This document shows positions 23,041-58,800 of a stretch of DNA of 64,000 bases, one piece after another. Source of the stretch: Caldicellulosiruptor acetigenus (GTDB taxonomy: Bacteria > Bacillota > Thermoanaerobacteria > Caldicellulosiruptorales > Caldicellulosiruptoraceae). The stretch spans positions 2,546,001 to 2,610,000 of the forward strand of contig NZ_CP113866.1 in assembly GCF_026914305.1 (NCBI RefSeq), read 5' to 3'. Each line of letters begins with the position of its first letter. Position 1 is the stretch's first letter. The notes below the pieces were generated by a model. The model was not told where the DNA came from and did no database searches. It worked only from the letters and a program-made list of their open reading frames with translations. The position numbers and the translations under genes are program-made.

Positions 23041-24474
23041 TTAGAAGTACAAATCCCTCACACCGTTTCTTATCATCTCAAGTCTTTTTTCTGTCTCTTT
23101 GCGCATTCTCTCATCTTTTATTTGATTTAAGCTCTCATATATCAAGCGTCTTCCAACCTCTTTTGTCTTTTCAGAACCATAGTCCTCTAAATACTCCATA
23201 AAAGTCAAAAGCGCATTTGGTGTGCAAAAGTCTTGAATATCACCTGTCTTTGCATACTGCATAAACAAATCCCCTGTTCTCCCTTTCCTATAACATGCAG
23301 TGCAGTAGCTTGGAATATAACCTGCCTCACAAAGGGTTCTTATGACCTCATCTGGACTTCTTTTATCTTCTACCTCAAACTGTGCAAGGTCTTCATCTAA
23401 ATCACCCGTGGATTTTCCTTCATACTCAAGTGTGTAGCCGCCAACACCTGTGCAAGAACCAGCGCTGATTTGCGATATCCCAAGGTCAATTACTTCTTCT
23501 CTAAAACCTGGCCTTTCACGGGTAGATAAAATCATGCCAGTGTAGGGCACGGCAAGTCGAATTATTGCAACAATCTTTTTAAACTCTTCATCAGAGACCA
23601 AATAAGGGTATCTTTCTTTTGTCACCTCAACACCTTCTGCAGGTCTAATTCTTGGCACAGAAATTGTATGCGGACCTACTCCAAACCTTTCCTCAAGATG
23701 CTTTGCATGCAAGATTAGTCCAACAACCTCAAATTTATAGTCATAAAGCCCAAAGAGCACTCCAAGCCCAACATCATCAATTCCTGCCTGCATTGCTCTG
23801 TCCATTGCCATCGTGTGCCAGTCATAATCTGACTTTGGCCCTTCGGGGTGCATGTATTCATAGGTTGGCCTGTGGTATGTTTCCTGGAAAAGTACATAGG
23901 TGCCTATTTTTGCTTCTTTTAGCATTCTGTATTCTTCAATGGTTGTTGCAGCGATGTTGACGTTCACCCTTCTTATGTTTCCTTTTTCTTTATATACTGA
24001 ATATATTGTTTTAATGCTATCTATAACATATTCAATTGGCGCTTCTTTTGGGTCTTCGCCAAGCTCAAGAGCAATTCTTTTGTGCCCAAGAGATTCAATT
24101 ATTTCAACCTCTTTTCGTATCTCATCCATTGTGAGCTTTCTTCTTTTCATCTTTGTATTTGACCTGTGATAACCACAGTATCGGCAGTTGTTTACACAAA
24201 AGTTGCTGATGTAAAGAGGTGCAAAAAGTACAATTCTTTTACCATAAATCCTCTCTTTTACCTGTCTTGCCGCCTTAAAAAGCTTTTCTAAAAGGTCTTT
24301 GTCCTCTATATAAAGAAGGGTTGCAACCTCCTGAGGCTCAAGTCCATTTAGCTGCAAAGCTTTTTCAATTATTTCTTCTGCTCTCTCAATATTTTTGCTT
24401 CCCTCTTCAAGGATATCATAGACCATCTGGTCATTTATAAAATCAGCTCTTTCCCATTGATCTTTTCTAAACAT
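23041..24474 (-). CDS. hydG: [FeFe]-hydrogenase H-cluster maturase HydG
   Basis: Radical-SAM enzyme of 477 residues that cleaves tyrosine to deliver the CO and CN ligands of the hydrogenase H-cluster. The CVNNCRYCGY motif (CX3CX2C, near residue 95) binds the SAM iron-sulfur cluster. The C-terminal CTACYRKGRTGDLFM segment holds the cysteines of the auxiliary cluster, which is specific to HydG rather than ThiH. The ATG at 24474 follows GGAGTG; the frame is open 13 codons further upstream. TM1266-family gene lies 22 bp upstream on the same strand. HydE and HydF are not in the window. The identification is firm. Confidence 0.95.
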   Translation of the reverse strand: MFRKDQWERADFINDQMVYDILEEGSKNIERAEEIIEKALQLNGLEPQEVATLLYIEDKDLLEKLFKAARQVKERIYGKRIVLFAPLYISNFCVNNCRYCGYHRSNTKMKRRKLTMDEIRKEVEIIESLGHKRIALELGEDPKEAPIEYVIDSIKTIYSVYKEKGNIRRVNVNIAATTIEEYRMLKEAKIGTYVLFQETYHRPTYEYMHPEGPKSDYDWHTMAMDRAMQAGIDDVGLGVLFGLYDYKFEVVGLILHAKHLEERFGVGPHTISVPRIRPAEGVEVTKERYPYLVSDEEFKKIVAIIRLAVPYTGMILSTRERPGFREEVIDLGISQISAGSCTGVGGYTLEYEGKSTGDLDEDLAQFEVEDKRSPDEVIRTLCEAGYIPSYCTACYRKGRTGDLFMQYAKTGDIQDFCTPNALLTFMEYLEDYGSEKTKEVGRRLIYESLNQIKDERMRKETEKRLEMIRNGVRDLYF

Positions 24475-24496
24475 CTCAAAATCACACTCCAATTTC

Positions 24497-24742
24497 TTAT
24501 TTAGTAAGAGCACTTTTTACCTTAACACCTGGCAAGCTACCAAGTTTACCTGTGAGCGCACCAATCTCATCAGTTGTCCCATCAACAATGAGCGAAATCA
24601 CACAAAGCCCTCTTTCTTTATATGGTATACCCATTCTCCCAACAATAATATCACCATGGTCACTTAGGATTTTGTTGAGCTTATCTGACACCTCTTTCCT
24701 GTTCTCAACCACAATTCCAATAACTCCAATCCGCCTTTCCAT
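24497..24742 (-). CDS. TM1266-family iron-only hydrogenase system regulator
   Basis: An 81-residue ACT-like small protein of the TM1266 family (putative regulators of the iron-only hydrogenase system, similar to NikR-type C-terminal domains). It reads RRIGVIGIVVENRKEVSDKL at the start and has a conserved HGDIIVGRMGIPYKE centre. It lacks a DNA-binding domain. Its position directly before hydG is typical of the family. The function is not established beyond this association. The two genes share the structured leader at 24774-24893. Confidence 0.85.
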   Translation of the reverse strand: MERRIGVIGIVVENRKEVSDKLNKILSDHGDIIVGRMGIPYKERGLCVISLIVDGTTDEIGALTGKLGSLPGVKVKSALTK

Positions 24743-24773
24743 AAAAACACCATTCCCTTTTCTAAAAAAATAA

Positions 24774-24919
24774 ATCCACCTCTCCTGACTTTTTTAACCT
24801 TTTTAGCCAAAAGAGGTGGATACAAGCCTTATTCTTGCTGACTTCAATCCAATTCCCCTCCTTATCAGGCTACTTTGCCCTCTAAGTCAGGAGCAAATGT
24901 TTTGTTTGTTAATATTATA
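24774..24919 (-). promoter_or_regulatory. Structured leader and promoter of TM1266-hydG (regulatory RNA candidate)
   Basis: On the minus strand a -10 TATAAT (24914-24919, weak -35) would start an approximately 165-nt leader. It contains two perfect 10-bp complementary pairs in interlocking order: CTCCTGACTT (24884-24893) with 24782-24791, and ATCCACCTCT (24812-24821) with 24774-24783. The two right arms share two bases. The second pair is followed by a T-rich run, as in an intrinsic terminator. A second partner for the first arm, GAAGTCAG, lies near 24838-24845. The layout suggests a pseudoknot or mutually exclusive helices, as in a riboswitch or attenuator. I do not recognise the class. Confidence 0.55.
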
Positions 24920-25014
24920 ACATAGTTTTTAGTAAATTAAAACACTATTTTAATCTCCTTCAGCAAAAATATCTTTATTCACTTCAAACTACAGCATATA
25001 TGATATAATGATAG

Positions 25015-55800: not shown

Positions 55801-58800
55801 ACCTCAGCTTTTTGCGTTTACATCCCTCATAGTTCAGATAAAACCCATCGCACCTTTCTGTAATTTCCTATATACCAGTAGTTTACATCCCTCATAGTTC
55901 AGATAAAACATCTTTAATATTTTGTCCTGTTTGGCTCAAAATTGAGTTTACATCCCTCATAGTTCAGATAAAACGCAGATTTTTGGATGTGGGTTCCTGT
56001 AGCACATAAAAGTTTACATCCCTCATAGTTCAGATAAAACAGTTTGGGTATCATAGGATATGTAATTGTAACAGTAAGGTTTACATCCCTCATAGTTCAG
56101 ATAAAACCACAACAAGTGATGTAATCATCAAATTAAATACCGACTGGTTTACATCCCTCATAGTTCAGATAAAACAATGAAATTTGGAGCAACCTATGCA
56201 AACTTGTTATCGTTTACATCCCTCATAGTTCAGATAAAACTGAAAACTTCTTTGTACTTTCGCAATCCAGTTATTTTGGTTTACATCCCTCATAGTTCAG
56301 ATAAAACCGACGCAACAATGATATAATGTTCGGGTAGCTCGGTGATGTTTACATCCCTCATAGTTCAGATAAAACCTCATTGTGTGATAATAGACGAGTT
56401 GCATGCGATAAGTTTACATCCCTCATAGTTCAGATAAAACTGACTATGAGACAGCGAAAAGTTTAAGTGATAAATTAATGTTTACATCCCTCATAGTTCA
56501 GATAAAACCTTACAACATTATTTATTGCACTCGTTATAAAACTAAAGTTTACATCCCTCATAGTTCAGATAAAACTAAGTCTGGAGAAAAGATATTCAAG
56601 TATGTAATTAAGAAGTTTACATCCCTCATAGTTCAGATAAAACCTGATAATAGCCTTGATCAATATAACTACTTCATAGTTTACATCCCTCATAGTTCAG
56701 ATAAAACTCAAAATAATACTGTATATCCCCAATTATCCCCTCGTTTACATCCCTCATAGTTCAGATAAAACTGGAATGATAAAAGCAAATCCAAGGTTAG
56801 GTTCAATGTTTACATCCCTCATAGTTCAGATAAAACAAATTCAGTTTGGGATACTGCAAGAAATTGTGTATCAAGTTTACATCCCTCATAGTTCAGATAA
56901 AACGCGATGGATTGGTATTGGGGATTAATAATACTTAGTTTGTTTACATCCCTCATAGTTCAGATAAAACTGATTATACGCAAGAGCAAGCTCTGTCCTT
57001 GCTATCGTTTACATCCCTCATAGTTCAGATAAAACGTGTATTGCTGCAGTTCTGGGTCTACCCAATACTCCTCGTTTACATCCCTCATAGTTCAGATAAA
57101 ACCCCAGAGACGAAAAGTGCATACAAATTTCCACACCATAGTTTACATCCCTCATAGTTCAGATAAAACTAACTGCTGGATCGTGCTTGGCTTTTGTTTT
57201 ATTTCGTTTACATCCCTCATAGTTCAGATAAAACCGTATGGTATTTTGTCTTCGACTACACGCCTTTCTAAAGTTTACATCCCTCATAGTTCAGATAAAA
57301 CTCTCTGACTGTTCCTGCTGTGGTAATCATAACAAGTAAGTTTACATCCCTCATAGTTCAGATAAAACAAGATATTGCAGTTGCAATTGAGAATGACATT
57401 ATTAAGTTTACATCCCTCATAGTTCAGATAAAACAGAAAAAAGGGATAAAATAGCAAAAGCTCTCATCAAAAGTTTACATCCCTCATAGTTCAGATAAAA
57501 CTGTTAGATGATGGAAGATGACAGATGACTGTTAGGGATGTTTACATCCCTCATAGTTCAGATAAAACAAGTTAGCAGACGGTGACAGAGTGGTAAGGAT
57601 TGGGTTGTTTACATCCCTCATAGTTCAGATAAAACTAATATAAATTATTCAATAACAGGTGGCTCTGTTAAGTTTACATCCCTCATAGTTCAGATAAAAC
57701 ATATAGTTTCAATCTTACCTTATACATTGCAAGTAAAGTTTACATCCCTCATAGTTCAGATAAAACGATAACCAGCAGTTGCTTGAAATTCCAAATTACT
57801 TCATGTTTACATCCCTCATAGTTCAGATAAAACATCTTCCGCCGGTGCAACTTCCAATACGTTTTTCTCTGGGTTTACATCCCTCATAGTTCAGATAAAA
57901 CTTTGGGAATTGGCACTGAAAACTTATCAAGTTTTAAGGTTTACATCCCTCATAGTTCAGATAAAACGAAGGTTCAAATATGACACCACGCCTAATAGAA
58001 TATGTTTACATCCCTCATAGTTCAGATAAAACCACCTTATTATGCAGCTGGTACTTGCAAGATTCTTATTGGTTTACATCCCTCATAGTTCAGATAAAAC
58101 GCTTCTTTGTTGTGTATTGCTCTAAAGGTAGCATATGTTTACATCCCTCATAGTTCAGATAAAACCATGGATATTGACAATGTGGCAAAATCTATTTTGG
58201 AGTTTACATCCCTCATAGTTCAGATAAAACCCACGCATAAACTTGAAAAATGCAGCTTTTTTCTCGCTGTTTACATCCCTCATAGTTCAGATAAAACAAG
58301 CACCGTCGAGAGCTGCAAACTTTGCAAAAGGCTGTTTACATCCCTCATAGTTCAGATAAAACCGGCAATTTGCGATACTTACAACCGCACGACCCATTTC
58401 GTTTACATCCCTCATAGTTCAGATAAAACTCAAGTATTTGCTCTTGTGATTTGCTATTGCTTTTTAGGTTTACATCCCTCATAGTTCAGATAAAACCAGC
58501 AGGAATTACAGGGATATCGTCCTGATTGTAAATGTTTACATCCCTCATAGTTCAGATAAAACTGACAGGATTAGAAGAAGAAGCTTGACCGAGGTAACTG
58601 TGTTTACATCCCTCATAGTTCAGATAAAACCCGTCGATATAAATCAAATACACTTCTCCATCTTGGTTTACATCCCTCATAGTTCAGATAAAACTGAGAA
58701 AATTTTTACTTTATCTTTTTCCATTTTATTACGTTTACATCCCTCATAGTTCAGATAAAACCAGTTATCAGCGTTGCGGGATAATCTAAGAATAGTTGTG

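Follow-up and report, generated by a model that had tools for sequence, protein, structure and literature searches.

PyrR-dependent attenuation of the pyr operons in Bacillus (Rfam PyrR element) relies on hairpins repeated in the leaders, which act as anti-antiterminators with an OFF logic; the small regulator gene often stands first, and copies of the hairpin precede biosynthesis genes and a transporter. The TM1266-hydG leader analyzed here appears alike in these respects. It is distinct from a PyrR element proper, however, in that the sequence and structure of its hairpin are unrelated and give no match to the PyrR model, and in that TM1266, here a proposed binder only, is a NikR-C/ACT-like protein instead of a phosphoribosyltransferase homologue. 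Guanidine-II (mini-ykkC) and tandem mini-hairpin riboswitches are likewise very short, near-symmetric and sometimes tandem, but in Guanidine-II two loops meet, whereas the present element has both of its UGA/RAG loops inside a single hairpin, has another regulon and does not match the Guanidine-II model of Rfam. Kink-turns and box C/D motifs share a CUGA strand and tandem sheared G-A pairs; the 3-nt bulge of the kink-turn is absent here, and covariation of column 17-26 places the loops as symmetric 3x3 (U-G, G-A, A-R). The RNA elements of ANTAR antitermination (PMC3369931) are small repeated hairpins over terminators that are read by a protein; binding there antiterminates (ON), whereas the hairpin here is predicted to be OFF and has other loop motifs. 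Leader RNA of the Moco/Wco (molybdenum/tungsten cofactor) riboswitch has been found upstream of some hydrogenase genes (PMC9481103), but the genes it controls, for a cofactor or enzymes, belong to another metal system, its fold is larger and it showed no Rfam match here.

Scanning with Rfam 15 at gathering score (including the PyrR element, Moco, guanidine, THF and NiCo models) gave 0 matches in the window, i.e. the whole 64,000-nucleotide stretch analyzed, and in 20 diverse loci; at a permissive E-value, no Rfam match overlapped the motif in 9 further loci. Weak matches in the leader (mir-3122, idnO and SBWMV2) were at chance level, far under their gathering scores. The scan itself works, as Guanidine-I was recovered elsewhere in locus L133 (2867-2965, 50.4 bits, sub-threshold), downstream of a hairpin-bearing hydE. 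An earlier note, made from the letters of this DNA, could not match the leader to a riboswitch class, and the scan agrees with it. In the open-access literature that we searched, this RNA is not described and no case of [FeFe]-hydrogenase maturation being controlled at the RNA level came up; nor is a target or mechanism given there for TM1266, by annotation a putative regulator in the iron-only hydrogenase system. The leader almost certainly represents a real and widespread class of structured regulatory RNA that is absent from Rfam.

The TM1266-hydG leader in Caldicellulosiruptor

The genus comparison used 12 congeners, whose gene content and Rex site point to Caldicellulosiruptor. All features of the locus lie on the minus strand. 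The leader is followed by a TM1266-family gene (24497-24742; TIGR03959, 120.5 bits) encoding a NikR-C-like protein of 81 aa without a DNA-binding domain, and by hydG (23041-24513; HydG, TIGR03955, 658 bits) for the H-cluster radical SAM maturase of [FeFe]-hydrogenase, which likely starts at the ATG at 24474. These identities confirm the H-cluster maturation gene that the earlier note had placed downstream.

That note had described two perfect 10-bp helices in the order A-B-A'-B', and both are indeed perfect: arm A (CTCCTGACTT, 24884-24893) with A' (AAGTCAGGAG, 24782-24791), and arm B (ATCCACCTCT, 24812-24821) with B' (AGAGGTGGAT, 24774-24783), where A' and B' share two bases and the last helix is followed by a T-rich run (24764-24774), again as described. 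When G-U pairs are counted, B:B' becomes a 17-bp terminator stem made of ATCCACCTCTTTTGGCT (24805-24821) and AGTCAGGAGAGGTGGAT (24774-24790), which a terminator scan limited to loops of ≤8 nt had missed. Among dinucleotide shuffles of the 177-nt leader (n = 3000), 3.4% contained one perfect 10-bp arm pair, and ~0.03% (about 3 in 10,000) contained two independent pairs. The second partner reported for arm A is present (AAGTCAG near 24845), but since it is not conserved among the 12 congeners we treat it as incidental.

Across the 12 congeners the leader is kept in blocks, with the Rex site and -10 element first, then TCCTGACTTAGAGGG-N6-GCCTGATARGGAGGGG, a variable linker, and finally TCCACCTCTTTTG..loop..GTCAGGAGAGGTGG and T's. 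Arms A and A' are almost invariant (12/12), as is the twin-loop hairpin described below. The A' core GTCAGGA is invariant in 12/12 species and A:A' retains 8-9 of 9 Watson-Crick pairs, while the terminator arm that faces A' varies, with G-U pairs and mismatches, indicating on sequence grounds that A' is held by A and not by the terminator. Thus, A:A' and B:B' are real helices, but they constitute a genus-specific expression platform, a form not found outside the genus; the widely conserved part, which the earlier note missed, is a hairpin of arm A with 24870-24855.

A covarying hairpin with two UGA/RAG loops

The twin-loop hairpin, a proposed sensor and anti-antiterminator, spans 24853-24894 (minus), as defined by its match to the covariance model R1 (37.6 bits), pair counts and conservation. 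Its 5' strand reads CC (24891-90)-UGA (24889-87)-CUUA (24886-83)-GAG (24882-80)-GG, followed by the loop, and its 3' strand CC (24869-68)-UGA (24867-65)-UAAG (24864-61)-GAG (24860-58)-GGG (24857-55). In the conserved core of ~38 nt, CC-UGA-NNNN-RAG-G...C-UGA-NNNN-RAG-GG, two near-identical UGA/RAG loops (tandem G·A) flank a freely covarying 4-bp helix; the pairs run C-G, C-G, U-G, tandem G-A/A-R and the free helix, and beyond it R-A/A-G, G-U, G-C, N-N and the loop. The corresponding blocks upstream of TM1266 in other families, such as those of Caldicoprobacter (CCTGATTACGAGGGG-ATGC-CCCTGAGTAAGAGGGG) and Syntrophomonas (CCTGATAATAAGG..GCTGAATTAGAGGGG), differ in their letters.

In the alignment of the 23 seeds, pairing is seen in 95% of cells and two-sided changes at five pairs. 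Since the seeds were chosen partly for complementarity, a second model was built from sequence only and the test was repeated on its matches, which gave a covariation score of 0.419 (76 distinct rows) compared to 0.118 when shuffled and ≤0.110 when slid. With the seeds excluded, 56 rows were left; in the 48 whose central helix was complete, this helix paired in 149/192 cells versus 85 after shuffling (0/5000 shuffles), with at least 3 of its 4 pairs formed in 36/48 rows versus 11 expected. Such covarying secondary structure characterizes the element as a structured cis-regulatory leader RNA.

Covariation was also observed at the pair adjoining the apical loop (GC, AU, UA, CG, UG), and for this reason a single nested hairpin was chosen over two mini-hairpins with kissing loops. 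The kissing arrangement fits the central helix, but its distal pair 26-38 fails in 7/23 seeds and shows no two-sided change, while the nested pair 17-26 covaries. A 3x2 bulged form of the loops gave a poorer fit. In Moorella, Desulfofundulus and relatives (L036, L043, L055, L065, L072 and L076), the twin-loop hairpin is preceded by an additional module, CC-UGA-CCGUAC..GUGCGG-GA-GGG, whose helix is longer and which has a single UGA/GA loop.

Distribution, downstream genes and co-occurrence with TM1266

The leader hairpin (E 6.7e-8 among loci) is the one credible R1 copy in its own genome; three weak extra matches there, and one at 58009 of the window (13.6 bits), were not credible. The covariance search was positive in 65/398 genomes of the phylum (44/266 genera), showing conservation in close as well as distant relatives; neither of the outcomes that the earlier note had named as refuting it, an Rfam match to a known class or a lack of conservation in close relatives, was thus observed. 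DNA around the phylum matches was combined with two class-level searches, and the next gene on the same strand was identified for each match. Among the genome-wide matches (n = 99), this gene was TM1266 in 38, HydG in 35, HydE in 13 and HydF in 1, so that 87/99 stand directly upstream of one of these four; transporters followed in 8 (ECF transporter S component 6, SsuC-like ABC permease 2, the latter at one tandem locus), and none was assigned in 4 (contig end 1, inside coding sequence 2, protein of unknown family 1). All 95 assigned matches lie on the strand of the downstream gene, a consistent position and orientation upstream of the genes of one pathway. Since no hydrogenase structural gene was found downstream among the 99, the regulon is one of maturation. 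Several copies can occur in one genome, for instance in Syntrophomonas and Thermosyntropha, where TM1266 and hydG are each preceded by the hairpin, and tandem copies occur in 13 loci. Two matches were rejected as false, L145 because it falls within a gyrase-like gene and L176 as a coding repeat.

The ECF transporter S component (PF12822) is the first gene after the hairpin at L151, L154, L156, L157, L162 and L210, and it follows TM1266 in the same operon at L143 and L146; knowing what it transports may tell which signal the regulon responds to. At L160 (551-637), tandem hairpins stand before genes for an ATPase and an SsuC/TauC-like ABC permease; TM1266 and hydG of this genome are on another contig. 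A good-looking hairpin at L147 (3501-3540, minus) lies upstream of a 185-aa protein with no Pfam or NCBIfam match, and in a MAG that bears the label Omnitrophota, TM1266 is preceded by a strong copy (L085, 2869-2908, 36.7 bits), reflecting either horizontal transfer or mis-binning.

Both TM1266 and HydG are encoded in 182 of the 398 genomes, HydG only in 31 and TM1266 only in 25, and the RNA was found in 64/182, 0/31 and 0/25 of these, respectively; when the 31 genomes with HydG only were searched under relaxed settings, no RNA was detected at E 0.02. Within HydG-positive genomes the RNA was associated with the presence of TM1266 (p = 8e-6; ~7e-5 by genus), shared ancestry being only partly controlled in this comparison. 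One family (f70) has both states, with the RNA in 2/2 genomes with TM1266 and 0/2 without. Of the 65 genomes with a match, 64 encode both HydG and TM1266 and the 65th is a false match to a coding repeat; TM1266 is therefore present in 64/64 genomes with credible RNA, as expected for the cognate protein of a PyrR-type attenuator. The RNA persists where only hydE, hydG or hydF follows and TM1266 is encoded elsewhere, e.g. in Thermoanaerobacter. The RNA ties control of maturation to TM1266 across >40 genera, including H2-producing and acetogenic thermophiles. No RNA match was obtained at the threshold used in 118 genomes with TM1266 and HydG; if TM1266 is the regulator, it would have other roles or diverged RNA targets there. 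A HydG frame with one in-frame TAG (G376:C14:49035-50444) may be a pseudogene, an error or a case of stop readthrough.

TM1266 proteins are ~81 aa long and related to NikR-C (PF21699 and NikR_C), with one solved relative (2nzc). As they lack a DNA-binding domain, their label 'regulator' would be accounted for by an RNA target. TM1266 is the most likely partner of the RNA, an assignment to which we give about an even chance of being right.

Alternative folds, probable direction of control and proposed effector

Arm A would be the 5' strand of both the twin-loop hairpin and an antiterminator, and A' both the 3' strand of the antiterminator and the inner 3' arm of the terminator. In ViennaRNA predictions, A:A' was the minimum-energy fold of the transcript reaching A' in 9/12 species (window: −41.3 versus −35.2 kcal/mol), and hairpin plus terminator was the better fold of the complete transcript in 10/12 species (window, with B' made: −46.8 versus −44.8 kcal/mol; unconstrained optimum −47.8), with energies computed at 37 °C for thermophiles and small differences within Caldicellulosiruptor. 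The predicted ON fold is nested, A:A' enclosing the 3' strand of the hairpin paired with the 5' arm of the terminator. The expression platform of the 12 congeners thus has conserved, mutually exclusive predicted structures, which supports the terminator/antiterminator switch that the earlier note had offered; the pseudoknot of A:A' with B:B', its other reading, is not needed to explain A:A', for which the fully nested antiterminator suffices. Outside the genus, about half of the genome-wide matches have a terminator-like hairpin between motif and gene, and the G-rich 3' strand of the motif is ≤25 nt from the start codon in 22/99, including all ECF and HydF cases, which by its position at the Shine-Dalgarno region points to a translational form. 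Because the hairpin competes with the antiterminator or overlaps the Shine-Dalgarno region, we infer from these models that its formation means OFF in both designs, and the RNA is probably an OFF switch.

We favor, at roughly even probability, PyrR-like attenuation with TM1266 as the RNA-binding regulator over a direct small-molecule riboswitch. The hairpin, ~13 nt after the presumed transcription start, would act as an anti-antiterminator: an effector on its two identical UGA/RAG loops would keep it folded and arm A locked, so that the 17-bp terminator forms and transcription ends before TM1266-hydG. Without the effector, A:A' and the pairing of the hairpin 3' strand with the terminator 5' arm would build the nested antiterminator and RNA polymerase would pass, and in other genera the hairpin would cover the Shine-Dalgarno sequence and block translation. 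As effector we propose the TM1266 protein, either by itself or carrying a signal of the status of H-cluster maturation; by binding the 2-fold pseudo-symmetric hairpin it would autoregulate itself and control HydE/F/G and a few transporters. It is conceivable, at a little under even probability, that proteins of the TM1266 family, with their ACT/NikR-C fold, make up a new type of attenuator protein that binds RNA, responds to an intermediate of H-cluster maturation and controls, through the pseudo-symmetric hairpin, an RNA regulon of its own. The function of TM1266 is now testable by one binding assay.

A serious rival, to which we assign perhaps a third of the probability, is a direct riboswitch of the same logic without a protein, in which the hairpin is the aptamer for an H-cluster-linked metabolite or metal, for example an Fe-CO-CN intermediate, tyrosine, SAM or Fe2+. 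A conserved structured leader with varied expression platforms, tandem copies and control of an ECF S component and ABC permease, a pattern common in riboswitch regulons, all fit this reading, but the hairpin is very short without a conserved junction, its conserved nucleotides are the two symmetric tandem-GA loops, and co-occurrence with TM1266 is strict even where the regulated gene is not TM1266. With a metabolite as effector, the hairpin would define a new class of riboswitch, which might respond to a building block of the H-cluster or to an organometallic precursor; protein or metabolite alike, the effector would offer a way to engineer H2 producers. Protein or tertiary contacts are typically made by tandem G-A motifs, and another RNA-binding protein, such as a k-turn-binding L7Ae-like protein or a moonlighting maturase, could read those of the hairpin, TM1266 being merely a common target. 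HydG, too, always accompanies the RNA; nevertheless the 3-nt bulge that a k-turn would have is absent, and TM1266 is encoded wherever a credible match occurs, which makes this improbable.

The Rex operator (24906-24924, minus; palindrome TTGTTAATATTATAACA read on +), unique in the window, overlaps the -10-like TATAAT (24919-24914) in the promoter of TM1266-hydG. A study of C. bescii picked a Rex site of this operon, 181 bp ahead of the ATG, for binding assays, and its authors report validated Rex control (PMC6391272). The reading that Rex regulates and the leader senses nothing, being a plain intrinsic terminator with chance complementarity or a DNA operator only, accords with this overlap with the -10 (PMC6391272) and with the strong terminator hairpin, but is contradicted by covariation and conservation across 44 genera. 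The 5'-UTR placement on the strand of the gene and the C. bescii rex deletion, in which the operon was not derepressed (log2 −0.21 to −0.27; PMC6391272), also speak against it, and we regard it as very improbable. The lack of derepression is consistent with an added layer of control such as the leader.
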